In this document: piece by piece, positions 29,015-52,431 of the stretch | How positions within the stretch are numbered: the first letter of the stretch is position 1 | Layout of the letters: the number at the start of each line of letters is the position of its first letter | From: Ottowia sp. SB7-C50 | Lineage (GTDB): Bacteria; Pseudomonadota; Gammaproteobacteria; Burkholderiales; Burkholderiaceae_C | Direction: 5' to 3' | Assembly: GCF_033110285.1 (NCBI RefSeq) | Contig: NZ_CP136995.1 | Coordinates: 1,984,001 to 2,048,000, forward strand | DNA length: 64,000 bases | Program-made: the position numbers and the translations under genes | The notes under the pieces: model-generated | The model's input: only the letters and a program-made list of their open reading frames with translations | Database searches by the model: none | Told to the model about the DNA's origin: nothing

Positions 29015-29935
<921 letters not shown>

Positions 29936-29950
29936 CGGTGCCGATTCAGA

Positions 29951-30020
29951 AACTACATTTTTGATAGCTGCTCGTGCACGCCAGACAAGCGCTAGCGGCC
30001 TTTTTTATTTAAAATTTTCA
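29951..30020 (+). repeat. Family A palindromic repeat, copy 6
   Basis: TTTTTGATAGCTGCTCGTGC and CAAGCGCTAGCGGCCTTTTTT are the arms, with AT-rich flanks on both sides. Lies between the MoxR and DUF58 genes. Confidence 0.85.
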
Positions 30021-30043
30021 TTGCGCTCACCCGTCCCGCAGGC

Positions 30044-31039
30044 ATGGCGTCACCCACCGCTTCGACAATGCCCGCCCCACCCTGGTGGGCGCTGCGTGCC
30101 CGCGCCGGCGCGCGCCTGCGCCGCTGGTGGCATGACCGGCTGCCGCTGTCCGACAGCCTGACGCTGACGCAGCGCAACGTCTACATCGTGCCGACGCGCG
30201 CGGGGTGGATGCTGGCGGCCACGCTGGGTGTGCTGCTCATCGCCTCGATCAACTACCAGCTCAACCTGGGCTATCTGCTCACCTTTCTGCTGGCGGGCTG
30301 CGCCGCCGCCGGCATGGTGGTGTGCCACCACACGCTGCGCGGGCTGACGCTGCACCTGCTACCGCCGCAGCCGCTGTTCGCGGGCAACCTCGCCACGCTG
30401 GACGTGAAGCTGGTCAACGCCCGCCGCGAGGCGCGCCATGCCATCGGCGTGGCCTTGCTCGATACCGACCACTGGTCCTTCGCCGACGTGCCCGCGCAGG
30501 GCGACAGCACGGTACAGGTCAGCTTCAAGCCTGCACGGCGCGGCCTGCACCGCGTGCCCACGCTGACCGCCGAAACGCGCTTTCCGCTCGGCACCTTTCG
30601 CGTCTGGACGGTGTGGCGCCCCGCCGCGCGGGTACTGGTCTACCCCACGCCCGAAGCGCAGCCGCCCGCGCTGCCGCCGGGCGAGCCGCGCTCGGGCACC
30701 GGTGTGGCGGCCGGTGTGCGTGCCAGCGGCGAATTCGACGGCGTGCGCGGCTACCAGCGCGGCGACCCGATGAAGCTGGTGGTGTGGAAGAAGTTCGCCA
30801 AGTCGGGCGAGCTTGTCAGCCGCGACACCCTGCACATGCAGCGGCAAGAGTTGTGGCTGGACTTCGCCCGCGCCGGCAGCGTGGACACCGAGGCGCGCCT
30901 GTCGCGCCTGACGGCCTGGGTGCTGGCGGCCGACGCGCAGGGACTGGACTACGGCCTGCGCCTGCCGGGGGTCCAGATCAAGCCGGGCAGCGGCGCGGCG
31001 CACCGCCTGCGCTGCCTGGAATCCCTGGCAAAAGCATGA
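30044..31039 (+). CDS. DUF58-domain membrane protein
   Basis: 331 residues. Two adjacent hydrophobic helices at about 48-95 (GWMLAATLGVLLIASINYQ, then LGYLLTFLLAGCAAAGMVV) anchor it; the C-terminal soluble part holds the DUF58 motif VRGYQRGDPMKLVVWKKFAK. The fold of this region is related to von Willebrand A domains, but the metal site is usually incomplete. DUF58 proteins are constant partners of MoxR ATPases; presumably a target of the upstream ATPase. Start ATG 30044 gives a short Pro-rich lead. A family B repeat follows the TGA at once. Confidence 0.9.
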   Translation: MASPTASTMPAPPWWALRARAGARLRRWWHDRLPLSDSLTLTQRNVYIVPTRAGWMLAATLGVLLIASINYQLNLGYLLTFLLAGCAAAGMVVCHHTLRGLTLHLLPPQPLFAGNLATLDVKLVNARREARHAIGVALLDTDHWSFADVPAQGDSTVQVSFKPARRGLHRVPTLTAETRFPLGTFRVWTVWRPAARVLVYPTPEAQPPALPPGEPRSGTGVAAGVRASGEFDGVRGYQRGDPMKLVVWKKFAKSGELVSRDTLHMQRQELWLDFARAGSVDTEARLSRLTAWVLAADAQGLDYGLRLPGVQIKPGSGAAHRLRCLESLAKA

Positions 31040-31042
31040 CAT

Positions 31043-31160
31043 TCCCCCCTGAGTCGCTTCGCGCCTTCCCCCCAGGGGGACGACGCCAGTGGCCGGTACA
31101 AGCCCGGCCACGGCGCCCCCGCGTGGCCTGCTCCGCGGCCGCCGGATTTGGCGCGTCTGG
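31043..31160 (+). repeat. Family B intercistronic repeat, copy 4
   Basis: CCCCCCTGAGTCGCTTCGCG, then CCCCCCAGGGGG hairpin, GACGACGCCAGTGGCCGGTA, and CGGCCACGGCGCCCCCGCG. It begins 3-4 bases after the DUF58 stop and fills the gap up to the TgpA gene. Confidence 0.8.
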
Positions 31161-31196
31161 GCGCGCGCGCGCCATGCCATGGATGGCGCCAGCACC

Positions 31197-33241
31197 ATGA
31201 AATGGGCCACTCTTGCCCACCTGCCGCGCGATGCGCGCGACACGCTGTTCCTGCTGGCCGTCATCGGCTGGGTGATGCTGCCGCAGGTGACGCACCTGCC
31301 CGTCTGGGCCAGCGCGCTGGCGGCCGGCGTGCTGGTGTGGCGCGGCTGGCTGGCCATGGCCGCGCGGCCGCTGCCGGGGCGCTGGTGGCTGGTGGCGCTG
31401 CTGGCCGTGGCGCTGGCGGGCACCTGGGCCACGCACCGCACGCTGCTGGGGCGCGATGCGGGCGTCACGCTGGTGGTGATGCTGCTGGCGCTGAAGACGC
31501 TGGAGCTGCGCGCGCGGCGCGACGCGCTGGTGGTGTTCTTCCTCGGCTTCTTCACGCTGCTGACCAACTTCTTCTATTCGCAGTCGCTGGCGGTGGCGGC
31601 GGCCATGCTGGTGGGGCTGCTGGGCCTGCTGACGGCGCTGGTCAACGCGCACCGGCCGGTCGGCCAGCCGCGCCTGCGCGAATCGGCGTGGATGGCCGGA
31701 AAGATGGCGTTGGCCGGCGCACCGGTGATGCTGGCGCTGTTCGTGCTGTTTCCGCGCTTCTCGCCGCTTTGGGGCATTCCGAGCGACGCGCTGGCGGGGC
31801 GCAGCGGGCTGTCGTCCACCATGACGGTGGGCCACATCGCCCGCCTGGCGCTGGACGACGGCATCGCCATGCGCGTCAAGTTCGACGGCGCGCCGCCGCC
31901 GGCCGGCAGCCTGTACTTTCGCGGCCCGGTGCTGAGCCATTTCGACGGCCGCACCTGGACGCCGCGCGGCGGCAGCGACGGCGACGGCTTCGAAACCGCG
32001 CTGACGCCCGGCCCCGCCGACCTGCAATTGCTGGGCGAGCCCGTCCGCTACGAAGTCACGCTGGAGCCCAGCAACCGCCCCTGGCTGCTGCCGCTGGACG
32101 TGGCCGGCAAGCCGCCCCAGCTGCCGGGCGACCAGCGCGCCCGCATGACGGCAGACATGCAGTGGCTCACCTATCGCCCGGTCACCGAACTGCTGCGTTA
32201 CCGCGCCGAAAGCCACCTGCGCTTCCGCTACGGCCTGCTGGGCTGGGACCAGCGACCGCGCCGCGATTTTTCGGCCGACCTGAGGCTGCCGCCGACCTAC
32301 AACCCGCGCACCGTGGCGCTGGCCGAACAGCTGCGCCAGTCGGTGGGCAACGATCCGCAGGCGCTGGTGCAGGCCGCGCTGCAGCGCCTGCGCACCGGCG
32401 GCTACGAATACACGCTGGAGCCCGGCACCGCCGGCCAGCACACGGCGGACGAGTTCTGGTTCGACACCAAGGCCGGCTTCTGCGAACACATCAGCTCGGC
32501 CTTCGTCGTGCTGCTGCGCGCCGCGGGGGGTGCCGGCGCGCGTCGTCACCGGCTTTCAGGGGGGGCGAATTGAACGGCATCGACGGCTACTGGGTGGTGC
32601 GCAACGCCGACGCCCACGCCTGGACCGAAGTCTGGTACCCCACCCAGGGCTGGGTGCGCGTGGACCCGACCGGCGCCGTCTCGCCGGGGCGCATCGGGCA
32701 GTTTCAGCGCCTGCGCGCGCCCGACGGCGTGGTGGCTGGCGCCATCGGCACGCTCAGCCCCACGCTGCTGGTGCAGCTGCGCAGCGTGTGGGACGCCGTC
32801 AACAACCGCTGGAACCAGTGGGTGCTGAACTACACGCAAGGCCGCCAGCTCGACCTGCTGCGCAGCCTGGGCTTTGACAACCCCAGCTGGCAAGACCTGG
32901 GCAAACTGATCGCCTACGTGCTGACGGCGGTGGCCCTGGCCGGCGCCGCGTGGGCCCGCTGGGACCGCGGCCAGCACGACCCCTGGCTGCGCCAGCTGGC
33001 CCGCGTGCGCCGGCGGCTGCTGGACGCCGGCATCGACGCCCCGCCCCAGGCACCACCCCGCACGCTGCTGCAACAGGTGGCCGCCAGCGCGCTGCCACCC
33101 GAGCTGCGCCAGCCGCTCACCGACTGGCTGCTGGCCTTTGAACGCCTGCGCTACGCCCCCGCTGGCAGCCACGCGGGCCGCAGCCTCGCTACACTGCAGC
33201 GCGACTTTCAACGCCTTCCCTGGCCCCGCCGCCGCCCATGA
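31197..33241 (+). CDS. TgpA-type membrane transglutaminase (DUF3488), two frameshifts
   Basis: About 680 residues after two one-base corrections. Several N-terminal membrane helices (residues about 15-185), a periplasmic transglutaminase-like domain, another membrane helix (LIAYVLTAVALAGAAW) and a cytoplasmic tail. Catalytic triad: Cys in KAGFCEHISSAF (about 427), His in DAHAWTEVWYP, Asp in VRVDPTG. The frame is lost at the G6 run 32525-32530 and again at the G7 run 32559-32565; dropping one G in each restores AGVPARVVTGFQGGELNGI. In Pseudomonas a homologue, TgpA, is essential; such proteins probably act on periplasmic peptides or peptidoglycan-linked groups. The stop overlaps the MltB start (ATGA). 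Confidence 0.87.
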
Positions 33242-34344
33242 CCACCACACCCGACCGACCGCTAGACCGCCGCCGCCTGATTGCTACACTTTGCATAGCT
33301 GCTGGCGCTCTATCCACGGGCGCCAACGCGCAAAATCGTTCACAAAACCGGCGCCGCGCCGCCAACCCACCCGAACAGCGCTACGCCGACCGCCCCGACG
33401 CCATGCGCTTTGCCGACGACATGGCCGCGCGCCGTGGCCTGTCAGCGGAATGGACGCGCGCCGCCATCGGCCAGGCCCTGTACCTGCCGAACGTGCCGCG
33501 CCTGATGCTGCCGCCCGCGCGCGGTACCGCCAAGAACTGGCGCGTGTACCGCAGCCGCTTCATCGACCCGGTGCGCATCCGCGCCGGCGTGCAGTTCTGG
33601 CGCCGCAACCGCGCCGCACTGGCGCGCGCCGAAGCCGAATTCGGCGTACCGCCCGAAATCGTCGTCGGCATCATCGGTGTCGAAACCATCTACGGCCAGA
33701 ACATGGGCAGCTTCCGCGTCATCGACGCGCTGGCCACGCTGACCTTCGACTTTCCCCCGCAGCACCCGCGCGCGCAGGCGCGGCAGGCGTTTTTCCAGGA
33801 CGAGCTGGAGCAGTTCCTCAGCCTGTGCCAGCGCACCGGGGTAGACCCGCTCACCCCGCTGGGCAGCTACGCCGGCGCCATGGGCATGCCACAGTTCATG
33901 CCGTCCAGCTGGGTCAAATACGCCATCGACTTCGACGGCGACGGCCGCGTCGACCTGTGGAACAGCGAAACCGACGTCATCGGCTCGGTCGCCAACTACT
34001 TCAAAGGCTACGGCTGGCAGCCCGGCCTACCCACGCACTACCCCGTGCGCCTGACCCCCGAAGCCCAGATGGACGCCCTGCTGGCGCCCGACATCCTGCC
34101 CAGCTTCAGCGCCGACAGTTTTGCCGCCAAAGGCGCCCTGCCCCTCAACGGCGGCACCGCCCACCCCGGCAAGCTGGCCCTGATCGAACTGCAGAACGGC
34201 GACCCCGCCCTGCCCGGCAACGAGCCGCAATACGTCGCCGGCACCGAGAACTTCTACGTCATCACGCGCTACAACTGGAGCAGTTATTACGCGATGGCGG
34301 TGATCGACCTGGGGCAGGAAGTGGCGGCGGTGGTGGGGCGCTGA
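33238..34344 (+). CDS. mltB: Lytic murein transglycosylase B
   Basis: 368 residues. SLT-type lysozyme fold of the MltB family: VPPEIVVGIIGVETIYGQNMG with catalytic Glu149, GAMGMPQFMPSSW, DFDGDGRVDLWNSETDVIGSVANYF. It cleaves the MurNAc-GlcNAc bond of peptidoglycan with 1,6-anhydro formation. The N-terminus (RRRLIATLCIAAGALSTGA) is a weak, Ser/Thr-rich signal peptide with no lipobox, so it is a soluble periplasmic member. The DNA for this signal peptide (33279-33335) looks like a family A repeat read as protein. Its ATG overlaps the TgpA stop by four bases, showing translational coupling. Confidence 0.92.
   Translation: MTTTPDRPLDRRRLIATLCIAAGALSTGANAQNRSQNRRRAANPPEQRYADRPDAMRFADDMAARRGLSAEWTRAAIGQALYLPNVPRLMLPPARGTAKNWRVYRSRFIDPVRIRAGVQFWRRNRAALARAEAEFGVPPEIVVGIIGVETIYGQNMGSFRVIDALATLTFDFPPQHPRAQARQAFFQDELEQFLSLCQRTGVDPLTPLGSYAGAMGMPQFMPSSWVKYAIDFDGDGRVDLWNSETDVIGSVANYFKGYGWQPGLPTHYPVRLTPEAQMDALLAPDILPSFSADSFAAKGALPLNGGTAHPGKLALIELQNGDPALPGNEPQYVAGTENFYVITRYNWSSYYAMAVIDLGQEVAAVVGR
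33279..33335 (+). repeat. Family A-like sequence inside the mltB signal peptide
   Basis: ATTGCTACACTTTGCATAGC, then TGCTGGCGCTC and GGGCGCCAACGCGCAAAAT: the same arm words as the intergenic repeats, read in frame as residues 14-33. It is imperfect, so chance resemblance remains possible. Confidence 0.4.
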
Positions 34345-34388: not shown

Positions 34389-35348
34389 TCACCCGGCGGT
34401 CGGCACCAGAAAATCCCGGCTGACATGCGCCCCCAACTGGTTCACCCGATCCAGAAACTGCGTCAGGAACGCATGCAGCCCGGTGGCCAGGATGTCGTCG
34501 ATGTGGCCGTAGCGCAGTTCGGCGCGCAGGCGGCCGGCGTGGCGCATGGTGGGGCCTTGGGGTTCGGCACCGACCAGCAGCAGGTTGTTGAGCACTTCGC
34601 TCATGCAGTGGTGCAATGACCGCGGCATGGCTTCGCGCAGCATCAGCAGTTCGGCCACGCGCTCGGGCTCGATGACGTCGCGGTAGACCTTGCGGTAGAT
34701 CTCGAAGCCGCTCAGGCTGCGCAGGATCGCGGCCCAGTGGTAGAAGTCGTATTCCAGATCCTTCTCGCTGGCAGCGCCGAAGAATTCGCTTTCGACGGCG
34801 TGAAACTTCACGTCGAGGATGCGCGCGGTGTTGTCGGCCCGCTCCAGGAAGGTGCCCAGGCGCAGGAAGTGAAACGCCTCGTCCTGCAGCATGGTGCCCA
34901 GCGTGACGCCGCGCGACAGGTGGGAGCGAAATTTCACCCATTCGAAGAACGCGCCGGGGTCGCGGTCGAAGGCGCCTTCATGGCGCATGCGGCCGATTTC
35001 CAGCCAGGTCTGGTTCAGCGTTTCCCACACTTCGGTGGTGAGCGTGCCGCGCACGGCGCGGGCGTTTTCGCGCGCTGCCTTCAGGCAGGCAATGATGGAG
35101 GCAGGGTTGTCCTCGTCCAGCACCATGAAGTGCATCACGCCCTGCGGCGTGACGTCGCCATGGCGCGCGCTGTAGGCGGGCAGCAGTTCGGACAGCGACA
35201 GCACGCCCAGCCAGCCATATTGCGACACCGCCGCCGATTGCGGCAGCAGCGAGGTTTCGTAATGCACGTTGAGCATGCGGGCGGTGTTCTCGGCCCGCTC
35301 CGTGTAGCGGGACATCCAGAACAGGTGATCGGCGGTGCGGGAGAGCAT
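34389..35348 (-). CDS. Alpha-E domain protein (stand-alone)
   Basis: 319 residues, all-helical. Starts MLSRTADHLFWMSRYTERA, the alpha-E signature, and contains FLERADNTARILDVKFH, RVAELLMLREAMPRSLHHC and HVSRDFLVPT. Alpha-E proteins have no established activity but are nearly always next to circularly permuted ATP-grasp and transglutaminase genes, and comparative genomics has proposed that these three form a peptide-ligating/peptidase system. Here the ATP-grasp partner is 347 bases upstream on the same strand. The first 58 bases of the gene are repeated twice upstream by a 150-bp tandem amplification. Confidence 0.9.
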   Translation of the reverse strand: MLSRTADHLFWMSRYTERAENTARMLNVHYETSLLPQSAAVSQYGWLGVLSLSELLPAYSARHGDVTPQGVMHFMVLDEDNPASIIACLKAARENARAVRGTLTTEVWETLNQTWLEIGRMRHEGAFDRDPGAFFEWVKFRSHLSRGVTLGTMLQDEAFHFLRLGTFLERADNTARILDVKFHAVESEFFGAASEKDLEYDFYHWAAILRSLSGFEIYRKVYRDVIEPERVAELLMLREAMPRSLHHCMSEVLNNLLLVGAEPQGPTMRHAGRLRAELRYGHIDDILATGLHAFLTQFLDRVNQLGAHVSRDFLVPTAG

Positions 35349-35650
35349 GGGTCAGTTCCAGTTAAGCCTCGAACCCCGGCGCGCTGACGCGCGCGGCGGT
35401 GTTGTGGTGCTGCGCACCCTGTCCGCTACCGCGGACAGAACGGCCCGCTCGGTGTAGCGGGACATCCAGAACAGGTGATCGGCGGTGCGGGAGAGCATGG
35501 GTCAGTTCCAGTTAAGCCTCGAACCCCGGCGCGCTGACGCGCGCGGCGGTGTTGTGGTGCTGCGCACCCTGTCCGCTACCGCGGACAGAACGGCACGCTC
35601 CGTGTAGCGGGACATCCAGAACAGGTGATTGGCGGTGCGTGAAAGCATGG
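35291..35650 (-). repeat. Tandem 150-bp amplification of the alpha-E gene start
   Basis: Units 35291-35440, 35441-35590 and a partial third unit 35591-about 35650 have a 150-base period and near-identity. Unit 1 holds the real ATG (35348); the other ATGs at 35498 and 35648 each open a 48-codon reading frame that shares the first 19 residues (MLSRTADHLFWMSRYTERA, one change in the third) and then runs to an unrelated end and a TGA. The junction contains the palindrome GTCCGCTACCGCGGAC. This occupies the gap between the ATP-grasp and alpha-E genes; the remaining 35651-35695 shows nothing. Confidence 0.9.
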
Positions 35651-35695
35651 GTGAAGTTCCGCATTGGGCGTTGAACGTTGAGCGTGGCGTGCTGT

Positions 35696-37237
35696 TCAGA
35701 ACGACTGGCTTTGACTCTGAAAGCCGGACGCCGAGCGCTGCACCTGGCGTTGCGTGCCAAGGGCCGAGCCTTCCTCCAGCACCCACGTGTCCTTGGTGCC
35801 CCCACCCTGCGACGAGTTGACCACCAGCGAGCCCTGCTTGAGCGCGACGCGCGTCAGGCCGCCGGGGACCATCTGCACCTCGGTGCCGCTCAGCACGAAC
35901 GGGCGCAGGTCGATGTGGCGCGGGGCGATGCCGGCGTCGACGTAGGTGGGGCAGCTGGACAGGCTGAGCGTGGGCTGGGCGATGTAGCCGTCGGGCCGGG
36001 CCAGCACGGCGCGGCCGAATTCCTCGATCTCGGCGGCGGTGGACGCGGGGCCGACCAGCATGCCGTAGCCGCCGGCGCCGTGCACTTCCTTCACCACCAG
36101 GTCCTTCATGTTGGCCATGACGTATTTCAGGTCGTCCGCGTCGCGGCACATGTAGGTGGGCACGTTGTTCAGGATCGGCTTCTCACCCAGGTAGAACTCG
36201 ATCATCTTGGGCACGTAGGGGTAGATCGACTTGTCGTCGGCCACGCCGGTGCCGACACCATTGCAGATGGTCACATTGCCCGCGCGATACGCCGCCATCA
36301 GCCCGGCGCAGCCCAGCGATGAGTCGGCGCGGAACACCTGCGGGTCGAGGAAGTCGTCGTCCACGCGGCGGTAGATCACGTCCACCCGCTGCGGGCCGCG
36401 CGTGGTGCGCATGTAGACGAAGCCGTCCTTGACAAACAGGTCCTGCCCCTCTACCAGCTCGACGCCCATCTGCTGCGCCAGGAAGGCGTGCTCAAAGTAG
36501 GCGCTGTTGTACATGCCGGGCGTCAGCACCACCACGGTGGGGTCGGCCGACGTGCTGGGGCTGCTGGCGCGCAGGGTTTCGAGCAGCAGGTCGGGGTAAT
36601 GCGCGACGGGCGCCACGCGGTGCTGGCTGAACAGGTGCGGAAACAGCCGCATCATCATCTTGCGGTCTTCCAGCATGTAGCTGACGCCGCTGGGCACGCG
36701 CAGGTTGTCCTCCAGCACGTAATACTCGCCCTGGCCGTCGGCGTTGCCGGCGCGCACGATGTCCACGCCCGAGATGTGCGAATAGATTTGGTTGGGCACC
36801 GCCACGCCCTGCATGATGGGGCGGTATTGCGCGTTGTTCATCACCTGCTCGCGCGGCACGATGCCGGCCTTCAGGATTTCCTGCCCGTGGTAGACGTCGT
36901 GGATGAAGCGGTTGAGCGCCGTCACGCGCTGCACCAGGCCGCGCTGCAGCATGTCCCACTCGGGGGCGGGGATGATGCGCGGGATCAGGTCGAAGGGAAT
37001 CAGCCGCTCGGTGCCGGCGCCGTCCTCGTCCTTGGCGCCGTACACGGCAAAGGTGATGCCGACGCGGCGAAAGATGACCTCGGCCTCCTCCCGGCGCGCG
37101 CGCATGACGTCGGCGCTCTGGCCCGCCAGCCAGCCGGCGTAGCTGCGGTAATGGCCGCGGATCGCGCTGCCGTGGTAGGCCTGCGGGTCGGCCTGGGTCG
37201 AGGCCAGGCTTTCGTACATCTCGTCGAACGGGTGCAT
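35696..37237 (-). CDS. Circularly permuted ATP-grasp protein (type 2)
   Basis: 513 residues. Begins HPFDEMYESLASTQADPQAY and contains RIIPAPEWDMLQRGLVQRV, ISGVDIVRAGNADGQGEYYV, EDNLRVPSGVSYMLEDRKMM, LTPGMYNSAYFEHAFLAQQM, VDVIYRRVDDDFLDP, NGVGTGVADDK and YVMANMKDLVVKEVHGAGGYG, the hallmark set of this family (DUF404/407 type). ATP-grasp enzymes join a carboxylate to an amine via an acyl-phosphate, here in a permuted domain order. ATG 37237 is preceded by GAGGAG; Met at 37279 is an alternative. It is followed on the same strand by the alpha-E gene, its usual partner. The amine and acid substrates are unknown. Confidence 0.92.
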   Translation of the reverse strand: MHPFDEMYESLASTQADPQAYHGSAIRGHYRSYAGWLAGQSADVMRARREEAEVIFRRVGITFAVYGAKDEDGAGTERLIPFDLIPRIIPAPEWDMLQRGLVQRVTALNRFIHDVYHGQEILKAGIVPREQVMNNAQYRPIMQGVAVPNQIYSHISGVDIVRAGNADGQGEYYVLEDNLRVPSGVSYMLEDRKMMMRLFPHLFSQHRVAPVAHYPDLLLETLRASSPSTSADPTVVVLTPGMYNSAYFEHAFLAQQMGVELVEGQDLFVKDGFVYMRTTRGPQRVDVIYRRVDDDFLDPQVFRADSSLGCAGLMAAYRAGNVTICNGVGTGVADDKSIYPYVPKMIEFYLGEKPILNNVPTYMCRDADDLKYVMANMKDLVVKEVHGAGGYGMLVGPASTAAEIEEFGRAVLARPDGYIAQPTLSLSSCPTYVDAGIAPRHIDLRPFVLSGTEVQMVPGGLTRVALKQGSLVVNSSQGGGTKDTWVLEEGSALGTQRQVQRSASGFQSQSQSF

Positions 37238-37339
37238 GGCCTTCGGGGCTCCTCTGTGTTCCTGGCGGTCGGTCGGCATGTGTGCCGTTTCGTGACTAGC
37301 ATAGCAAGATGCAAGCCATGTCCGGCGGCGCACCAGCCT

Positions 37340-39823
37340 TCAGGGCAGCCGGTGGTGCCAGTAGCGCGCCGCGTGCGCGCGCTCGCACCGCAGTGCATCG
37401 GGTTGTGCACTGTTCCAGCGCATCGCACCACAACGGGGCGAATCGGCCACCCGCACGCCGCGCGCGGTGTAGCGCGCCAGCACCTCGGGCACCGGGTGGC
37501 CAAAGCGGTTGCGATAGCCAGACTGGATCAGCGCCCAGTCGGGGCGCACGGCGGCGACGAAGTCCGGCGTGGACGAGGTGCGGCTGCCGTGGTGCGGCAC
37601 CAGCAGCACGTTGGCGCGCAGAGCGTTGCCGTGCACAGCCACCAGCGCGCGTTCCTGCTCGGCCTCGATGTCGCCCACCAGCAGCGCCGCGCGGCCGCCG
37701 CCCTGCACGCGCAGCACGCAGCTCATGGCGTTCGATTTTCTCGGTGCGCCATAGTCCGCCGCGGCCGGGTGCAGCAATTCGAAGCGCACGCCGTCCCAGT
37801 CCCACGCCTGCCCGGCCTGGCAGCGCATGGCGGTGCGCGCGCCTTGCAATTCGTGCCCTTCCTCGATGGACGACAGCAGCGCCGCGCTGCGCTGCATGGC
37901 CAGCACGGCCCCGGCGCCGCCGGTGTGGTCGCTGTCGCGGTGGCTCAGCACCAGCGTGTCGACGCGCTCGCCCAGCGCGCGCAGCAGCGGCACCAGCACG
38001 CGGTGGCCGGCGTCGCTTTCCAGTGAATAGCGCGGCCCGGCGTCGTACACCAGCGTGTGGGTGGCGGTGCGCACCAGCACCGCGTTGCCCTGCCCCACGT
38101 CGGCCGCCAGCAGCTCGAACTGGCCGGGCACGGGCCGCGCCGGCTGCCACAGCAGCAGGGGCAGCACCAGCGGCAGCCCCGCCACGCGCAGCGCCCACGG
38201 CCAGCGCAGGGCCAGCAGCAGCGCCCCACCCACCGCCGCCACGCCCAGCGGCAGTGGCGCGCTGGCCAGCGACACACTGGCACCGGGCCAGCTGGCCAGC
38301 CACTGCAGCAGCGCGGCCAGCGGCTGCAAGGCCCAGGCCGCCGCCTGCCACAGCGGCGCCCACGCCATGCCCAGCATGGCCAGCGGCGTGACCACCAGCG
38401 TCACCCACGGAATCGCCAGCAGGTTGGCCAGCAGGCCCACCACCGAGGCCTGCCCGAACAGGATCAGCGACAGCGGCGTCAGCGCCAGCGTGACCACCCA
38501 TTGCTCGCGCAAAAGACGCCCAAAATGCCCGCGTGCGCCTGTCTGCAGGGCGGATGCCGCTCCTGAATCGGTAGCAAACAGCACGCCGACGGCGACAAAG
38601 CTCAGCCAGAACCCGGCCTGCAGCAGCGCCCATGGGTCGGCCAGCAGCACCACCGCGCAGGCCAGCAGCCAGGTCAGCCACCAGGGCCAGCGCACGCCGG
38701 CCAGTTTCAGCAGCGACACCGTGGCCAGCATCAGCACCGTGCGCTGCGCCGGCACGCCCCAGCCGCTGAACAGCGCATATGCGCCCGCCAGCAGCACGCC
38801 GCCGATCAGCGCCGCGTGCGGCGCCGGCAGCAGCAGGCAAGGGTCCAGCCGCGCCGGCAGCCCCCAACGGGCCGAACGCCGCCACAGCCCGCCAACCAGC
38901 GCCGCGGCCAGCCAGGCAAACATGGTGATGTGCAGGCCCGAGATGCTCATCAGGTGCGCCACGCCGGTGGCGCGAAAGATGTCCCAGTCGGCCCGCTCGA
39001 TGACCGCCTGGTCGCCCGTCACCAGCGCGGCGACGATGCCGGCAAAGCGCCGCCCTTCATCACCCTGCCCCGCGCCGCCGGCCAGGATGCGGTCGCGCAC
39101 CGACTGGCGCGCGCGCTCGATCGGGAAGGCCGCGCCTTCTGCCAGCCGCCGTGGCGGCGCATCGCGCGGGCCGGCGCGCACGTAGCCGGTGGCGCGCACG
39201 CCCTGCTCCCACAGCCACAGTTCGTAGTCAAAGCCGTGCGGATTCAAGTTGCCGTGCGGTGCCTTCAGGCGTGCGGTGAACTGCCAGCGGTCGCCCGCGC
39301 GCAAATCGGCCGCCAGCGGGCGCGCGGCGTCGGTCTCGTCCGCGGTGCTGGCCGAGCCGTACCACGCCAGCTGCACGCGCGGCGGCACCGCCACGGGTTG
39401 GCCGTCGATCTGCGCCGCTTCGACGTCAAAGCGAAAGCGCCAGCCCATGTCGCCGCGTTGCGGCATGCGGCTGACAAGGCCGGTGAGCACCACGTCGCGC
39501 CCCTCGATGGCGGGGGCGAGCGCCTGCGCCTGCAACGCACCCGCGCGCAGCCCCACGCCTGCGAAGGCCGCCAGCGCCGCGGCCAGCGCGCACAGCGCCA
39601 TCGGCACGCGGGCGCGGGGCCCAGCGCTGGCGCGCCAGGCCAGCACCAGTCCCACCAGCGCCGCCGCCAGCAGTGCGGCGTAAGCCCCCGGCTGCCACAG
39701 CGCGACCTGCTGCAGCTGCGCCGCCGTGCCCGCCACCACGCCCGCCAGCGCCGCCGGCAGCATCAGCCCCACCCGGCGCGCGGCAAGGTCAGCGGGCGGC
39801 ACGGGGGCGGCGGTCATGTCCAC
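37340..39823 (-). CDS. comEC: ComEC/Rec2-family DNA internalisation protein
   Basis: 827 residues. N-terminal membrane helices and a DUF4131-type soluble loop, then the competence membrane domain (GVAHLMSISGLHITMFAWLA and following helices), and a C-terminal metallo-beta-lactamase-like domain with LVLSHRDSDHTGG (about residue 626) and VPHHGSRTSSTPDF. ComEC is the inner-membrane channel that carries single-stranded DNA into the cytoplasm during natural transformation. The GTG at 39823 is used; ATG two codons later is equally good. It lies between two alpha-E/ATP-grasp sets without being functionally linked to them. FATDSGAASALQTGARG (38559-38578) may be a repeat-derived insertion. Confidence 0.92.
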   Translation of the reverse strand: MDMTAAPVPPADLAARRVGLMLPAALAGVVAGTAAQLQQVALWQPGAYAALLAAALVGLVLAWRASAGPRARVPMALCALAAALAAFAGVGLRAGALQAQALAPAIEGRDVVLTGLVSRMPQRGDMGWRFRFDVEAAQIDGQPVAVPPRVQLAWYGSASTADETDAARPLAADLRAGDRWQFTARLKAPHGNLNPHGFDYELWLWEQGVRATGYVRAGPRDAPPRRLAEGAAFPIERARQSVRDRILAGGAGQGDEGRRFAGIVAALVTGDQAVIERADWDIFRATGVAHLMSISGLHITMFAWLAAALVGGLWRRSARWGLPARLDPCLLLPAPHAALIGGVLLAGAYALFSGWGVPAQRTVLMLATVSLLKLAGVRWPWWLTWLLACAVVLLADPWALLQAGFWLSFVAVGVLFATDSGAASALQTGARGHFGRLLREQWVVTLALTPLSLILFGQASVVGLLANLLAIPWVTLVVTPLAMLGMAWAPLWQAAAWALQPLAALLQWLASWPGASVSLASAPLPLGVAAVGGALLLALRWPWALRVAGLPLVLPLLLWQPARPVPGQFELLAADVGQGNAVLVRTATHTLVYDAGPRYSLESDAGHRVLVPLLRALGERVDTLVLSHRDSDHTGGAGAVLAMQRSAALLSSIEEGHELQGARTAMRCQAGQAWDWDGVRFELLHPAAADYGAPRKSNAMSCVLRVQGGGRAALLVGDIEAEQERALVAVHGNALRANVLLVPHHGSRTSSTPDFVAAVRPDWALIQSGYRNRFGHPVPEVLARYTARGVRVADSPRCGAMRWNSAQPDALRCERAHAARYWHHRLP

Positions 39824-39832
39824 TCACGCGAT

Positions 39833-39890
39833 CAAATTGCTATGGTTTCAGAAGCATGATTTGCAGTCCTGGCAAGCGCACAGGCGATGA
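39833..39890 (+). repeat. Family A palindromic repeat, copy 7
   Basis: AAATTGCTATGGTTTCAGAA, GTCCTGGCAAGCGCACAGGC. Located in the divergent gap between comEC and the DUF2126 gene; the rest of the 169-base gap holds the DUF2126 gene's leader (CAGGAAACCCC before ATG 39993). Confidence 0.65.
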
Positions 39891-39992
39891 CGGGACATCA
39901 GCCTACTCGGTCAAGGCCGGTTTTCGTCACAGGGCATGGCCCACAGCTTGCTAGCATGCGTAGCGTATCGGATCACCCGATCAGGAAACCCC

Positions 39993-42900
39993 ATGCCCAT
40001 CCATGCCGCGCTGCACCACGTCACCCACTACCGCTACGACCGGCCCGTGCAACTGGGGCCGCAGGTGGTGCGCCTGCGCCCAGCGCCGCATTGCCGCAGC
40101 AAGATCATTTCGTATTCGCTGGCAGTCGAGCCGGCCAGCCACTTCCTCAACTGGCAGCAAGACCCGTTCGCCAACTGGCAGGCGCGCCTGCTCTTCCCGA
40201 CAAGACCACCGAGTTCAAGGTCACGGTCGACCTGGTGGCCGAGATGGCGGTCTACAACCCGTTCGACTTTTTTCTGGAACCGGAGGCGGAGAACTTCCCT
40301 TTCAGCTACGACCCGCTATTGAAAGAAGAGCTGGCGCCGTACCTGGCGCGCGGGCAGAACGGCGATTTGTTTGAAAAATACCTGGCCGGCATCGACCGCC
40401 GCCCGCAGCGCACCATCGACTTTCTGGTCGGCCTGAACCAGCGCCTGCAGCACGACATCGGCTACCTGATCCGCATGGAACCCGGCGTGCAGACGCCCGA
40501 GCAGACGTTGCAAAAAGCCAGCGGCTCGTGCCGCGATTCGGGCTGGCTGCTGGTGCAGCTGCTGCGCCATTGCGGGCTGGCGGCGCGCTTCGTGTCGGGC
40601 TACCTGATCCAGCTGAAGGCCGACCAGAAGTCGCTCGACGGGCCGAGCGGCACCGAGGTGGACTTCACCGACCTGCACGCCTGGTGCGAGGTCTATTTGC
40701 CCGGCGCCGGCTGGATCGGGCTGGACCCCACATCGGGCTTGCTGGCCGGCGAAGGCCACATCCCGCTGGCCTGCACGCCGCAGCCCAGCGGTGCCGCGCC
40801 CATCGAGGGGCTGGTGGACGAGGCCAAGGTCGAATTCCGCCACGACATGGCCGTCACGCGCATCCACGAATCGCCGCGCGTCACCCTGCCCTACAGCGAC
40901 GCGCAGTGGGACGCGATCCTGAAGCTCGGCGACGAAGTCGATGTGCAACTGCAGGCCGACGACGTGCGCCTGACCATGGGCGGCGAGCCCACCTTCGTCG
41001 GCATCGACGACCGCGACGGGCCGGAGTGGAACACCGCCGCGCTCGGCCCCACCAAGCGCGTGTTCGCGCTCGATTTGCTGCACCGGCTGAAGGCCAAATA
41101 TGGCCCCAATGGCTTTTTGCACCTGGGCCAGGGCAAGTGGTACCCCGGCGAGCAGCTGCCGCGCTGGGCGCTCAGCCTGTACTGGCGGCCCGACGGCCAG
41201 CCGCTGTGGCACAACCCCGCGCTGCTGGCCGACGAGCGCCAGCCACAGCGCGCCCGGCCCGAGGACGCCGAGCGCTTCATCCACGCGCTGGCACGGCGGT
41301 TGGGCGTGGGCACGCAGACCATCCGCCCCGGTTACGAAGACCCGTGGCACTTCATCCAGGCCGAGCGGCGCCTGCCGATCAACGTCGACCCTTTCAACAG
41401 CCAGCTGGGCGACGAGATGGAGCGTGCGCGCCTGCGCCGCGTCTTCACGCAGGGGCTGGACAAGGTGATCGGCTACCTGCTGCCGCTGCGCGCGGCCTCG
41501 CAACTGGCAGAGTCGCCCGACTTCCTGCGCGAAGTCCCGCCCGATCAGCGCCCGCGCTGGCTCACCGGCCGCTGGTGGTTCCGTGACGACCGGCTGTACC
41601 TGGTGCCCGGCGATTCGCCCATGGGTTTCAGGCTGCCCCTGAGCAGCCTGCCGTGGGTCAGCGACGACGACCTGCCAAAGTCCTTCCCCAAGGACCCTTA
41701 TGCGCCCGATGAGTCCGATGCGCTGGATGCAAGCGCGGAGGGTGCTCCTGAAAAAGAAGCAATCGACCCCAACGACCGCGCGCCCGAACGCGGCGAATCG
41801 GCCGCCTGGGTGCCGCGCACCGCACTGGTGGTGGAGGTGCGCGACCCGGTGCGTTCGCACACACCCGACACCGACCTGCCCGAGATCGAGGGCGACGACG
41901 AGGCCGCCGAAGCCCGCCGCGCCGCGCGCAGCGCACACCAGGCCGCCGTCGCCAAATACGCGCTGAAGGCGGGCAAGTCGAGCCTGCTGTACGTCTTCAT
42001 GCCGCCGCTGGACCATGTCGAGGACTACCTGGCGCTGGTCGCCGCCATCGAGCAGACCGCCGCCGAGCTGAACTTGCCGGTGGTGATGGAAGGCTACCCC
42101 CCACCACGCGACAAGCGGCTGAAGATGCTGCAGATCACGCCCGACCCCGGCGTGATCGAGGCCAACATCCAGCCGGTGACGAACTGGCGCGAGCTGGTGG
42201 ACAACACCGAGTTCCTGTACAGCCAGGCGTTTGAGAGCCGCCTGTCGGCCGAGAAGTTCATGACCGACGGCCGCCACACCGGCACCGGCGGCGGCAACCA
42301 CTTTGTGCTGGGCGGCGCCACGCCCGACGACAGCCCGTTTTTGCGCCAGCCCGAGCTGCTGGCCAGCCTGATCCTGTACTGGCACAACCATCCGTCGCTG
42401 TCCTACCTGTTCAGCGGCCTGTTCATCGGCCCCACCAGCCAGGCGCCGCGCGTGGACGAGGCGCGCAACGACCAGCTGTACGAGCTGGAGATTGCGCTGC
42501 AAGAGATCCACAAGGCCCGCCAGGAACGCGGTGAGGCGATGCCGCCCTGGCTGGTCGATCGATCCTTGCGCAACATCCTGATCGACGTCACCGGCAACAC
42601 GCACCGCAGTGAGTTCTGCATCGACAAGCTGTATTCGCCCGAAGGCCCCACCGGCCGACTGGGCCTGCTGGAGATGCGCGCCTTCGAGATGCCGCCGCAC
42701 GCCCGCATGTCGATTGCGCAGCAGTTGCTGATGCGCGCGCTGGTGGCGCGTTTCTGGCGCACGCCCTACACCGGGCCGGCGGCGCGCTGGGGCACGCAGC
42801 TGCACGACCGCTTCATGCTGCCGGCCTATATCCACCAGGACTTCGAGGACGTGATGGCCGATATGCGGCGCGTCGGCTACGCCTTTGACAGCGCGTGGTT

Positions 42901-43477
42901 TGCGCCGCATTTCGAGTTCCGCTTCCCCATCGTCGGCGACGTGAACGTGCTGGGCATGCGGCTGGAGTTGCGCAACGCGCTGGAACCCTGGCACGTGATG
43001 GGCGAGGAAAGCAGCGGCGGCGGCACCGCGCGCTACGTTGATTCATCGCTGGAACGGCTGGAGATGCGCGTCGCGGGCTTCAACCCCAGCCGCTACGCCA
43101 TCACCTGCAACGGCCACGCGCTGCCGCTGCAGGCGCTGGGCGTCGAAGGCGAATACGTCGCCGGCGTGCGCTTCAAGGCGTGGAACCCGTGGTCGTCGCT
43201 GCACCCCTCGATCAAGCCGCACGGACCGCTGGTGTTCGACGTGTTCGACACCTGGTCGGGCCGCTCGGTGGGCGGCTGCCAGTACCACGTGGCGCATCCG
43301 GGCGGGCGCAATTACGACACCTTCCCCATCAACGCCTACGAAGCCGAAAGCCGCCGGCTGGCGCGCTTCTTCCCCATCGGTCACACGGCGGGGGCGATGG
43401 ATGTGCCGCCCGCCACGCTGAATGCGCCCGGCTCGCGCGAGTTTCCGTGCACGCTGGACTTGCGACGCACCAATTGA
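39993..43477 (+). CDS. Transglutaminase-like/DUF2126 protein, frameshifted near the start
   Basis: About 1161 residues when one missing base is restored. N-terminal transglutaminase_N region ([20 protein letters not shown]), transglutaminase core with Cys in [15 protein letters not shown] (about 178), His in [11 protein letters not shown] (about 229) and Asp in GLDPTSGLL, then a long DUF2126 region ([49 protein letters not shown]). The break is in TTCCCGAC at 40196-40199: one extra C or G joins LLFP to DKTTEFKV. The segment 41710-41800 encodes a poorly conserved Ser/Ala/Glu-rich stretch. Likely an amidase or protease of the same peptide system as the following genes, with which it shares direction and close spacing. 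Confidence 0.88.
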
Positions 43478-43521
43478 GTGCAAATGCGACAATGACCGCA
43501 ACGTGACTGCCCCGCCCGAGG

Positions 43522-46140
43522 ATGAACGCACCGGATCTGCCCGCTGCCGCGCCCCTGTCGGCTGACCGCTTCGAGTTTCCGTCGAGCGACGCCGACCACT
43601 TCGACGAAATGCACGCCCGGCCCGCGCTGGACCACGCGCCGGCCGGTTCGCCCGAGTCCGCTGCCAGTGGCCCGCTGACGCCGGCGTGGGCCGAATTCTT
43701 CCGCCACTGCGGCCCCGCCCATCCGCAAGAACTGAGCCGCCGCGCCGCGCAACTGGCGCGCCAGCTGCGCGACAACGGTGTCACCTACAACGTCTATGCG
43801 GACGAGGTCAATCTGCAGCGCCCCTGGCCGCTGGACCTGTTTCCGCTGCTGATTCCGCCCAGCGACTGGGCGCTGATCGAAGCGGGCGTGCTGCAACGCG
43901 TGCGGGTGCTCGAAACCGTGATGTCCGACATCTACGGCGAGCGCCGCCTGCTGAAAGACGGCCTGCTGCCCGCCGCGCTGGTGCAGGGCCACCCCGACTA
44001 CCTGCGCGCCATGCACGGCGTGCCCGCCGTGGGCGGCAACTTCCTGCACGTGGTGGCCTTTGACCTGGCGCGCGGCCCGCGCGGCCACTGGTGGGTGGTG
44101 TCGCAGCGCACGCAGGCGCCGTCGGGCCTGGGCTACCTGCTGGAAAACCGCTCGGCCGTGTCCACCCAGTTTCCTGACGCGTTCGAAACCATGAACGTGC
44201 GCCGCCTGGCCGACACCTACCGCGGCTTCATCGAAGGCCTGAAAGCCATGGTGCCGGCGGGCGCCGATTCGCACATCGCGCTGCTCACGCCCGGGCCGTA
44301 CAACGAGACGTACTTCGAACATTCGTACCTGGCGCGCTACCTGGGCGCCACGCTGGTCGAAGGCGGCGACCTGACGGTGCGCAACCAGCGCCTGTACCTG
44401 AAGACGCTGCACGGTCTGCGGCCGGTGCACGGGCTGATCAAGCGGGTGGACGACGCCTTTCTCGACCCGCTGGAGATGCGCCCCGAATCGCGCCTGGGCG
44501 TGCCCGGCCTGTTGCAGGCGGTGCGCGCCGGCACGGTGCTGGTGGCCAATGCACCAGGCGCGGGCTTTCTCGAATCCAGCGCGCTGCTGGGCTTCTTGCC
44601 CGCGCTGGCGCGGCACCTGCTGGGCGAAGAGCTGAAGCTGCCCGCCCTGCACACCTGGTGGTGCGGCGAACCCGCCGCGCTGCGTGCGGTGATGCCGCGG
44701 CTGGACCAGTGCGTCATCAAGCCGACCTACCCGTGGTCGACCAGCCGCGGCACCTTCCGGGCCGGCGTGGGGCCGTTGATGAGCCCCGACGTGCTGGCGT
44801 CGTGGGCCGACAGCATCCGCCGCGTGCCGGAGGAACACACCGTGCAGGCCTACATGTCGCCGTCGCAGATGCCCACCTGGCGCACCGGCGACCAGGCCGG
44901 CATCGTGCCGCGCGCGGCCATCCTGCGCGTGTTCGCGCTGTCCGACGGCGCCGGCTCGTGGCGTGTGCTGCCGGGCGGCATGACGCGCCTGGTGGGCGAA
45001 AGCGCCGGCCTGGCCACGATGGCGCTGGGCGGCAGCAGCGCCGACACCTGGGTGCTGGCCGATGCGCCGACGATGGAAACGCCCGAGTTCGACCTGAGCG
45101 CGCTGGCCCCCATCACGCCCACCGACACCGCGCTGGTGCAGCGCGAGCGCCTGATCACCAGCCGCTCGGCCGAGAACCTGTTCTGGCTGGGCCGCTACAC
45201 CGAGCGTGCCGAAAGCAGCGCCCGGCTGGCGCGCATCGCCCTGCACGCCCTGCACGGCGAGGAAGAACCCAGCGTGGCGCAGCTGATGTGGCTGGGCCAG
45301 CTGGCCGAAACCGCCGGCCTGGTGCCCGAAGACGCGCCTTCGCCGCTGGACGACCGCGCGGCCTTCGAGCACCTGCTGATCCACGGCCTGGCCGACACCG
45401 ACGACGTGCCCGGCGTCGGCTACGCGCTGCGCAGCCTGCGCCTGGCCGCCGGCGCGCTGCGCGAACGCCTGTCGCCCGAGCACTGGGGTTTCATCAAGGA
45501 AGCCGAGGAGCGCTTTCTGCGTGAAGGCGCGGCGCTGCGCGGCGGCCCGGCGCACGCCGAGGCCGAGGCCCTGCATTCGCTGACGCAGCTGTCGCGCGCG
45601 CTGGCCGCCATCACCGGCGCGCAGCAGGACCGCATGTGGCGCGACGACGGCTGGCGCCTGATGACCATCGGCCGGCAGATCGAGCGGCTGACCTGGCTGT
45701 CGGTGGCGCTGTCGCGGGGCTTCTACACCAACGCCGTGCACGACGCGGCGGGCCACGGCGTGGTGCTGGACCTGTTCGATTCGACCATCTCCTTCCACGC
45801 CCGCTACCAGCGCAGCCGCTCGATGGCCGCGCTGATCGAGCACGTGGTGCTGAACCACCAGAACCCGCGCTCGCTGGGCTGGGTGGTGCAGCGGCTGCGC
45901 ACGCTGCTGGCGCGCCTGCACGCCAACGACCCGCACCAGCTGGAAGACCTGTCGCTGCGCCTGCGCAACCCCCTGCCCGAAGACCTGCCGATGCTGTGCG
46001 AATCCGACCGCATTGGCGACTTCATCCACCTGCAGGCGCTGCTGGCGCACTTCATCGACGTCGGCGCGCACCTGTCCAACGACATCGGGCTGCGCCACTT
46101 CACCCACACCGCCGACGCGGCCCGCAGCGTGGGGGCCTGA
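43522..46140 (+). CDS. Fusion of circularly permuted ATP-grasp and alpha-E domains
   Basis: 872 residues. Residues about 60-540 are a permuted ATP-grasp (VYADEVNLQRPWPLDLFPLL, FDLARGPRGHWWVVSQRTQA, PSGLGYLLENRSAVSTQFPD, LTPGPYNETYFEHSYLARYL, VIKPTYPWSTSRGTFRAG); residues 545-872 are an alpha-E domain starting ITSRSAENLFWLGRYTERAE. The same two activities are separate proteins at 34.4-37.2 kb. Fusion strongly supports that these proteins act as one complex. It begins 44 bases after the DUF2126 gene and its stop is five bases from the next start, so all three genes form an operon. Reaction and substrate unknown. Confidence 0.92.
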   Translation: MNAPDLPAAAPLSADRFEFPSSDADHFDEMHARPALDHAPAGSPESAASGPLTPAWAEFFRHCGPAHPQELSRRAAQLARQLRDNGVTYNVYADEVNLQRPWPLDLFPLLIPPSDWALIEAGVLQRVRVLETVMSDIYGERRLLKDGLLPAALVQGHPDYLRAMHGVPAVGGNFLHVVAFDLARGPRGHWWVVSQRTQAPSGLGYLLENRSAVSTQFPDAFETMNVRRLADTYRGFIEGLKAMVPAGADSHIALLTPGPYNETYFEHSYLARYLGATLVEGGDLTVRNQRLYLKTLHGLRPVHGLIKRVDDAFLDPLEMRPESRLGVPGLLQAVRAGTVLVANAPGAGFLESSALLGFLPALARHLLGEELKLPALHTWWCGEPAALRAVMPRLDQCVIKPTYPWSTSRGTFRAGVGPLMSPDVLASWADSIRRVPEEHTVQAYMSPSQMPTWRTGDQAGIVPRAAILRVFALSDGAGSWRVLPGGMTRLVGESAGLATMALGGSSADTWVLADAPTMETPEFDLSALAPITPTDTALVQRERLITSRSAENLFWLGRYTERAESSARLARIALHALHGEEEPSVAQLMWLGQLAETAGLVPEDAPSPLDDRAAFEHLLIHGLADTDDVPGVGYALRSLRLAAGALRERLSPEHWGFIKEAEERFLREGAALRGGPAHAEAEALHSLTQLSRALAAITGAQQDRMWRDDGWRLMTIGRQIERLTWLSVALSRGFYTNAVHDAAGHGVVLDLFDSTISFHARYQRSRSMAALIEHVVLNHQNPRSLGWVVQRLRTLLARLHANDPHQLEDLSLRLRNPLPEDLPMLCESDRIGDFIHLQALLAHFIDVGAHLSNDIGLRHFTHTADAARSVGA

Positions 46141-46144
46141 CGCC

Positions 46145-47077
46145 ATGCGCCTGCGCATCACGCACGACACCGCCTACCGCTACGAGCCCGCGGTGCTGAC
46201 CGCCATGCACATGGTGCACCTGACGCCGCCGCCCACGCGCTGCCAGGACCGGCTGGACGCGCGCCTGCAGGTCAGCCCGCAGCCGACGTCGATCACCGAA
46301 TCGCTCGACGTCTACCGCAACGTGCGCACCTTCTTCGAGATTGCCGGCTCGCACGACAGCCTGCTGGTGCGCGCCAGCAGCCTGGTCGAAACCTACCCCC
46401 CCGAGCCCGCCGGCAGCACCATCAGCTGGGACGCGGTGCGCGACAGCTTCGTCTACCACGTGGGCGCCGAATGGCACCCGGCGGCCGAATTCATCTACCC
46501 CTCGACCTACGTCCACCCCGGCGAGGTGTTCGCCGACTACGCGCGCCCGTCCTTCGCGCCCGGCCGGCCGCTGATCGACGCCGCGCGCGAGCTGATGCAG
46601 CGCGTGCACGAGGACTTCACCTACGCCAGCCACAGCACCGAGATCAGCACGCCCGCCGCCGAGGCGCTGGCGCAGCGGCGCGGCGTGTGCCAGGACTTCA
46701 GCCACGTCATGCTGGCCTGCCTGCGGTCGATGGGCGTGCCGGCGCGCTACGTGTCGGGCTACCTGCTGACGCAGCCGCCGCCCGGCCAGCCCCGGCTGGT
46801 GGGCAGCGATGCATCGCACGCCTGGGTGTCGGTGTTTCTGCCCGACCTGGCGGCGCAGGCCGGCGGCCACGGCTGGTACGACCTGGACCCGACCAACCAC
46901 CGCGACGGCTGGAGCACGCCTGGCGAAGACTTCGTGCGGCTGGCGGTGGGGCGCGACTACGCCGACATCTCGCCCATGCGCGGGGTCATCCACGGCGGCA
47001 GCGGCCACCACCTGGACGTCGGGGTTACAGTGGAACCGTGCACCGCCGCCACGCTGGCCGAGGCGCCGCCCCTGTAA
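46145..47077 (+). CDS. Transglutaminase-family cysteine amidase
   Basis: 310 residues, no signal peptide. Starts MRLRITHDTAYRYEPAVLT, the transglutaminase_N domain. Catalytic Cys about 181 in RRGVCQDFSHVMLACLRSMG, His about 224 in SDASHAWVSVFLP, Asp about 247 in WYDLDPTNH, with GVPARYVSGYL between. Bacterial cytoplasmic members are thought to hydrolyse or transfer peptide bonds. It starts five bases after the ATP-grasp/alpha-E fusion stop, third gene of that operon; together the operon has two transglutaminases, one ligase and one alpha-E. Confidence 0.93.
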   Translation: MRLRITHDTAYRYEPAVLTAMHMVHLTPPPTRCQDRLDARLQVSPQPTSITESLDVYRNVRTFFEIAGSHDSLLVRASSLVETYPPEPAGSTISWDAVRDSFVYHVGAEWHPAAEFIYPSTYVHPGEVFADYARPSFAPGRPLIDAARELMQRVHEDFTYASHSTEISTPAAEALAQRRGVCQDFSHVMLACLRSMGVPARYVSGYLLTQPPPGQPRLVGSDASHAWVSVFLPDLAAQAGGHGWYDLDPTNHRDGWSTPGEDFVRLAVGRDYADISPMRGVIHGGSGHHLDVGVTVEPCTAATLAEAPPL

Positions 47078-47097: not shown

Positions 47098-47553
47098 ATG
47101 AGCGTCTACGACAAACTCCAGCAGCTCGGCATCCAACTGCCGCCCGTGTCCGTCCCGGCCGCCGCCTACGTGCCCTTTGTGCAGACGGGCCAGCTGGTGT
47201 TCCTGTCCGGCCACATCGCGCGCCGCGACGGCAAGCCCTGGGTGGGCAAGCTGGGCCAGAACATGACGACCGAAGAAGGCGCCCTGGCCGCGCGCGCCGT
47301 CGCCATCGACCTGCTGGGCACGCTGCACGCCGCCGTGGGCGACCTGAACCGCGTGCAGCGCATCGTCAAGGTGATGAGCCTGGTCAACAGCGCGCTCGAC
47401 TACACCGAGCAGCACCTGGTCACCAACGGCTGCTCGGCCCTGCTGGGCGAAGTGTTCGGCGACAAGGGCGCCCACGCCCGCAGCGCGTTTGGCGTGGCGC
47501 AGATTCCGCTGGGCGCGTGCGTCGAGATCGAGATGATTGCGGAAGTGGCCTGA
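47098..47553 (+). CDS. RidA (YjgF/YER057c)-family protein
   Basis: 151 residues, single trimer-forming RidA domain of the longer, YoaB-like subgroup (KLQQLGIQLPPVSVPAAAYV, GQLVFLSGHIARRDGKPWVG, then RSAFGVAQIPLGACVEIEMI). True RidA hydrolyses reactive enamine/imine intermediates formed by PLP enzymes; this needs a conserved Arg in the C-terminal strand region, and the Arg in ARSAFGVAQ is at a suitable place. Members of this subgroup are often of uncertain activity. It starts 20 bases after the transglutaminase gene and may ride in that operon. Confidence 0.88.
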   Translation: MSVYDKLQQLGIQLPPVSVPAAAYVPFVQTGQLVFLSGHIARRDGKPWVGKLGQNMTTEEGALAARAVAIDLLGTLHAAVGDLNRVQRIVKVMSLVNSALDYTEQHLVTNGCSALLGEVFGDKGAHARSAFGVAQIPLGACVEIEMIAEVA

Positions 47554-52410: not shown

Positions 52411-52431
52411 CACGCACCGTCCAAACGGCAT

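Follow-up and report, generated by a model that had tools for sequence, protein, structure and literature searches.

Split and fused alpha-E/permuted ATP-grasp sets in Ottowia sp. SB7-C50: a candidate ligase and pseudo-ligase pair

Systems that combine alpha-E, ATP-grasp and transglutaminase-like proteins are of an already known kind, the Anbu type. In the Anbu operon of P. putida (PP_2685-2688) and Y. bercovieri, an ATP-grasp and alpha-E pair stands with a transglutaminase-like partner, and the regulation of the operon is linked to nitrogen (PMC6376114, PMC7801951). In the present study we analyzed a 64-kb window, that is, the whole stretch of 64,000 nucleotides taken from the one-contig genome (3.61 Mb) of Ottowia sp. 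SB7-C50, in which two sets of alpha-E and permuted ATP-grasp genes lie on either side of comEC. The two proteins are separate in set 1 (the split set) and fused in set 2. The locus resembles the Anbu operon in its pair, in its transglutaminase-like partner and, as our results suggest, in nitrogen-linked regulation. Unlike in the Anbu operon, no Anbu was found in this genome, in which a search with the PF00227 profile gave hslV, beside hslU, as the sole proteasome-like match, and set 1 lacks its own transglutaminase. The locus also adds a fused degenerate paralogue and DUF2126 to the genes of the Anbu operon.

We lean, with modest confidence, towards the reading that the two sets make up a single composite amide-ligase system, which sigma-54 switches on, most likely under nitrogen starvation, and in which the fused protein is a non-catalytic partner. 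Iyer et al. reportedly described in 2009 alpha-E/ATP-grasp/transglutaminase neighbourhoods with DUF2126, and are said to have proposed a system of peptide synthesis or tagging. Relative to those neighbourhoods, the present analysis measured the pairing of the two sets, the RidA gene and the sigma-54-type sites. Our literature search found no paper on a degenerate ATP-grasp::alpha-E partner; the paper of Iyer et al. may have noted it. The proposed pairing of a ligase with a pseudo-ligase may be new, as we have not seen it described, and to our knowledge a heteromer of this kind would have no counterpart in the ATP-grasp superfamily.

The solved structure 3n6x, a putative glutathionylspermidine synthase of Methylobacillus flagellatus for which we know of no activity, is a homologue of both ATP-grasp proteins of the window (1.5e-204 for the split protein P0002 and 4.6e-78 for the fused protein P0005). 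It has the split-type motifs, unlike P0005. The eukaryotic glutathione synthetases, E. coli GspS and YgiC stand at about 9-14% identity, and the fused protein is without the E-x-N motif. In the rlo operon of P. aeruginosa, the ATP-grasp RloC is encoded beside a catalytically inactive partner, as we propose here; that operon differs in that the inactive part is the transglutaminase RloB, that RloC is compared with RimK, and that the gene set is another one (PMC12239564).

Pfam matches bore out the gene positions given by an earlier reading of this DNA (the original prediction), as well as its view of two paralogous alpha-E/permuted ATP-grasp sets, one of them fused. The three genes that it assigned to set 2 are placed as it had them, but the operon is longer, because a RidA/YjgF gene follows. 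The features are listed below.

34389..35348, minus strand: alpha-E protein of set 1, 319 aa (PF04168, E 9.7e-99), with ER motifs E17-R18 and E169-R170
35291..35660, minus strand: 150-bp tandem repeats, 2.5 copies, at the alpha-E start
35696..37237, minus strand: split permuted ATP-grasp ligase P0002 of set 1 (PF14403 CP_ATPgrasp_2, E 3.7e-164), motifs kept
37303..37318, minus strand: sigma-54-type -24/-12 site of set 1, located between the stop codon of comEC and the start codon of the ATP-grasp gene
37340..39823, minus strand: comEC (Pfam match), between the two sets and upstream of the split set
39937..39952, plus strand: sigma-54-type -24/-12 site of set 2
39993..43477, plus strand: Transglut_core::DUF2126 gene (Pfam; putative amidoligase), with a frame break near 40.2 kb
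43522..46140, plus strand: fusion P0005, CP_ATPgrasp_2::Alpha-E (Pfam, E 4.7e-137 and 8.7e-53)
about 43843-44991, plus strand: degenerate ATP-grasp part of P0005, aa 108-490
about 45157-46101, plus strand: alpha-E part of P0005, aa 546-860
46145..47077, plus strand: small transglutaminase-like protein (Pfam), Cys-His-Asp present, starting 4 nt past the fusion stop
47098..47553, plus strand: RidA/YjgF-family protein of set 2, 151 aa (PF14588, E 3e-14), after a 20-nt gap from the small transglutaminase

Both ATP-grasp proteins matched the CP_ATPgrasp_2 profile over the whole domain (546.6 bits for P0002 and 457.4 bits for P0005; cut-off 32), and these were the only two matches of that profile in the whole genome. 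A whole-genome profile search for alpha-E likewise gave no full-length match beyond the two sets; two extra matches, of 20 residues, lie in the leader copies upstream of the set 1 alpha-E. Among the matches listed for named genomes, the nearest fused proteins were from Ottowia, with 77% and 71% identity.

The residue alignment separated the two types of ATP-grasp. E208, N210, D366, D367, K368 and D475 were present in all 88 split-type rows (49 from the family and 39 others). All six were absent from the 41 fused rows of the family, P0005 among them, and from 30 further fused rows. The E-x-N and DDK motifs, K415, the G-Y-G of the glycine-rich loop and D475 were kept in 49/49 split-type rows of the family, including P0002, and in 39/39 others. 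The fused proteins form one branch. Both ER motifs of alpha-E were present in 51/51 split rows and 39/39 fused rows, and the fused alpha-E is without many other split-type invariants. The residue losses suggest that the fusion carries a pseudoenzyme as its ATP-grasp half, and catalysis was probably lost in the fused protein. Thus, the original prediction that both sets keep a ligase, with the fusion acting as an ATP-dependent ligase, was not borne out at the sequence level, because the conserved ATP-grasp ligands are gone from the fused protein; they are retained in the split protein. Catalysis by the split type is supported by the finding that the ATP-grasp of the Y. bercovieri Anbu operon releases phosphate from ATP (PMC6376114).

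We surveyed 60 genomes of the family with the profiles PF09899, PF04168, PF14403, PF00227 and PF08379, and 120 genomes of the phylum with the fused alignment. The permuted ATP-grasp profile was matched in 55 of the former and the fused alignment in 69 of the latter. In the family, both sets were found in 38 genomes, the split set only in 14, the fused set only in 2 and neither in 6. One of the two genomes with the fused set only (G050) holds pieces of the split set at contig ends, so that a split-type gene is present in 39/40 family genomes with the fusion. In the other (G008), whose assembly is 65% complete, no trace of the split type was seen. In one genome counted as having neither set (G019), a fused-type ATP-grasp stands without alpha-E, and a cut-off piece of the split type has His at position 210. 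Among the matches listed for the phylum, at least 37 genomes have a fused-type protein, typed by an open frame of at least 800 aa in 35 and by profile in G173 and G144, and 37/37 also have the split type. Eighteen named genomes have no split set near the fused locus; a split-type match lies elsewhere in 17 of them, typed by score and frame length only, two of these matches being partial. One 2.2 Mb metagenome assembly (G334) has the fused type without any split-type trace. The original prediction had asked whether fused and split sets co-occur in other Burkholderiales, and they do. To call them a duplicated system, as it did, is misleading, since the fused type stands without any trace of the split type only in G008 and G334. 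The two sets look like one system. As a separate observation, the Ottowia thiooxydans genome that holds locus L166 (G317) has two fused-type and one split-type ATP-grasp.

In family genomes that carry both sets on the same contig, the distance between the sets is 3.5-22 kb. The genes stand in series on one strand in 15 family genomes (layouts of 7 + 3 + 3 + 1 + 1), including G017, which has no DUF2126, and 17 loci show the divergent arrangement seen in the window, either complete or in a cut or reduced form. A transglutaminase directly accompanies the split ATP-grasp/alpha-E pair in 1 of the 38 family genomes with both sets, and none does so in set 1. In the locus L109 (of G037), a transglutaminase-like domain and a split ATP-grasp share one 878-aa frame.

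To define sigma-54-type sites, we used the pattern GG-N10-GC with at most 3 mismatches, 20-140 nt upstream of the start. Upstream regions with a motif-placed start codon numbered 74 for the split set and 43 for set 2, and removal of identical ones left 72 and 39. The site was present in 67/72 split and 38/39 set 2 regions (on average 4.7 and 1.8 in shuffles, and 5 and 8 on the opposite strand), and at two mismatches in 43 and 35 (shuffle means 0.8 and 0.3); these counts are not independent trials because the loci are related. The split sites lie mostly 38-48 nt upstream of the start, and that of the window lies at 81 nt. With 13 sigma-54-type matches, the whole window does not exceed the mean of 19.4 obtained by shuffling; the evidence lies in the position and conservation of the sites.

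The published nitrogen data fit in part. PP_2686-2688 of P. putida are strongly raised under nitrogen limitation and the operon was called likely NtrB/NtrC-controlled, and PP_2685 (Anbu) is raised much less (PMC7801951; see also PMC3325844). The promoter of PP_2688 gave a 3.7-fold nitrogen response (PMC8050072). A table of the NtrC regulon of B. cenocepacia gives DUF404/407 and DUF403 proteins at -8.2 and -9.4 (PMC5491218), and in marine metagenomes DUF403/404/407 and Bact_transglu_N associate with urea-metabolism domains (PMC3597751). Taken with the conserved sigma-54-type sites at both operons, these data suggest nitrogen starvation as the trigger, and a nitrogen signal may act in the present organism as well.

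The other proteins of set 2 give hints on the chemistry. In the small transglutaminase, C226, H269 and D292, which we take to be the triad positions of the family, were conserved in 39/39 aligned family proteins. The statement that only set 2 keeps peptide-cleaving partners holds for these sets, given that both matches of Bact_transglu_N in the genome belong to set 2 and that hslV is the sole proteasome-like match. The transglutaminase-DUF2126 gene is not simply peptide-cleaving, because Pfam describes DUF2126 as a putative amidoligase. Its first approximately 68 codons (from ATG 39993) are out of frame with the remainder, and the Bact_transglu_N match falls in a 143-aa frame; relatives with an uncut contig have frames of at least 1121 aa. 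The DUF2126 profile match (1292 bits) lies downstream of the break, which may be a sequencing error or an early gene loss. A RidA gene follows the small transglutaminase in 65/77 named loci, which come from the best 80 of at least 587 relatives and therefore lean towards close kin, and in 16/39 family loci holding the small transglutaminase. In these loci it ends 300-900 nt past the small transglutaminase. One locus (L242) holds a cut-off piece of the RidA gene, and in another (L229) the gene lies 4.8 kb away.

We think of the system as follows. Sigma-54 would switch on both sets, with nitrogen starvation as the most likely signal. The split ATP-grasp, together with its alpha-E, would be the working ligase, in which ATP activates a carboxylate that is then joined to an amine, as in glutathione synthetase. 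The fused protein would no longer bind ATP and metal in the usual way, and co-occurrence and layout suggest that it may physically pair with the split ligase and its alpha-E, as a scaffold, a gate or a presenter of a peptide or protein substrate. The small transglutaminase-like cysteine enzyme may trim or transfer the product, DUF2126 would supply a second, dispensable ligase step, and RidA, where present, may remove imine or enamine by-products.

Other explanations are conceivable. The fused ATP-grasp might be repurposed rather than dead, with a rebuilt site that serves another reaction, such as one with a different nucleotide orientation or with transfer chemistry, and makes or modifies a different product. 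Many pocket residues are conserved among the fused proteins (R184, R210, E266, D283, D315, R469, R489 and D508), these proteins have invariants of their own, such as E351 where the split type has Asp, and K415 stays Lys in 30/41 fused rows of the family; but the glycine-rich loop is gapped in 17/30 of the further fused rows and both E-x-N residues are gone from every fused row compared, and we regard this explanation as unlikely. That the fusion is itself an active amino acid ligase, so that two active ligase systems exist as originally predicted, would agree with the strong matches of both proteins to CP_ATPgrasp_2 and 3n6x and with the glutathione synthetase fold of the fusion's structure model. 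The fused rows compared have lost the catalytic motifs, which makes it very improbable. We give hardly any credence to a decaying paralogue without function, which could explain the lost residues and the frame break in the neighbouring DUF2126 gene, but not why fused genes are long, open and conserved over the phylum sample with family-specific invariants. A different possibility is that the sets are two separate pathways with a common neighbourhood and sigma-54 switch and no common reaction, the fused set using its own transglutaminase and RidA. Each set in the divergent layout has its own promoter-like site, the split set is on another contig or distant from the fused locus in some genomes, and the fused set, mapped on the split-set tree, switches between present and absent at least 6 times (with G040, whose assembly is 74% complete, excluded). 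Against this, the fused set is almost never without a split-type gene and in-series layouts recur, and we consider separate pathways quite improbable.

Several points weigh against the composite system with a non-catalytic partner that we prefer. Gene content, the loss and retention of motifs, co-occurrence and promoter-like sites are read directly from sequence, and from such comparison we infer the partner role and the inactivity of the fused protein. The metal and nucleotide ligands are presumably those given by motif order and by the glutathione synthetase/GspS literature, and a profile alignment of the ATP-grasp to E. coli Gss did not succeed. The pocket is partly kept, in K415 as above and in K514, which is present in 17/30 further fused rows. 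G008, G334 and G019 are exceptions to co-occurrence, if weak ones. The family genome survey detected no DUF2126 in G017 or G026, and DUF2126 is absent from loci L166-L168, one of them from O. thiooxydans, where the loci only were searched; because its gene is also frame-broken in the window, it seems the most dispensable part. In 23/39 family loci, some of which are cut short, no RidA gene was seen behind the small transglutaminase. In the phylum sample, a sigma-54-type site with at most two mismatches stood before 0/17 fused genes and 1/8 DUF2126 genes. At one mismatch, the NtrC palindrome GCACN7GTGC occurred 25 and 9 times, versus 21.5 and 12.6 in shuffles, and showed no enrichment; without mismatch the counts were 5 and 0 versus 1.1 and 1.0. 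In the literature, the promoter of PP_2685 (Anbu) is without nitrogen response (PMC8050072), expression of the operon is cited as unchanged in other conditions (PMC5666114), and a Y. bercovieri pull-down with Anbu as bait gave no specific partner, in an operon without a fused protein and with the ATP-grasp not used as bait (PMC6376114).

As to the surroundings, comEC does sit between the sets, as had been predicted, but it commonly adjoins the split set. It directly precedes that set in genomes without set 2 as well (G003, G010, G018, G027 and G043), and its neighbourhood is therefore independent of set 2. Genes for a MoxR-type ATPase, a TgpA-like protein and a lytic transglycosylase (SLT_2) at 29015-34344 adjoin set 1 on the opposite strand; the TgpA-like gene (31148-33241) has a weak Transglut_core match. 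A RES-domain protein at 51901-52431 is possibly half of a toxin-antitoxin pair.

The first approximately 19 codons of the set 1 alpha-E occur three times in the window, with 93-nt hairpin-rich spacers between the copies. The upstream copies form leader open reading frames, the nearer one of 48 aa. A similar layout with a hairpin-rich or related spacer, in which the codons are duplicated upstream once or twice, was seen in nine genomes (G000, G015, G010, G023, G034, L231, L236, G253 and G307), seven of them found among 150 overlapping loci with an alpha-E start and two by a spacer-pattern search. The spacer-core pattern gave 17 matches in 14/200 family genomes, compared with 3 for the reversed pattern; nine were at alpha-E (six genomes) and eight elsewhere, with no alpha-E start within the 3-kb locus. 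Across the nine genomes the leader frames are 40-53 aa long; they end at most 11 nt from the next ATG in 7/9, and the spacer contains an inverted copy of alpha-E codons 18-24 in 5/9. Possible explanations are translational coupling of alpha-E and a site-specific duplication.

The matches in 55/60 family and 69/120 phylum genomes indicate that the alpha-E/ATP-grasp/transglutaminase system is widespread. We tentatively put forward a wider proposal, in our view possible but less than probable: throughout the phylum, the pseudo-ATP-grasp::alpha-E protein may serve as an obligate subunit, regulatory or substrate-presenting, of an active ATP-grasp/alpha-E ligase, which together with the transglutaminase-like enzyme and often RidA would make a peptide or protein tag in nitrogen starvation. 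The results point to which of the two ATP-grasps should be assayed for catalysis and offer a testable trigger, namely sigma-54 and nitrogen limitation, and the RidA gene hints, on the chemical side, at imine or enamine intermediates. They also predict that the fused protein would be needed as a partner wherever it exists.
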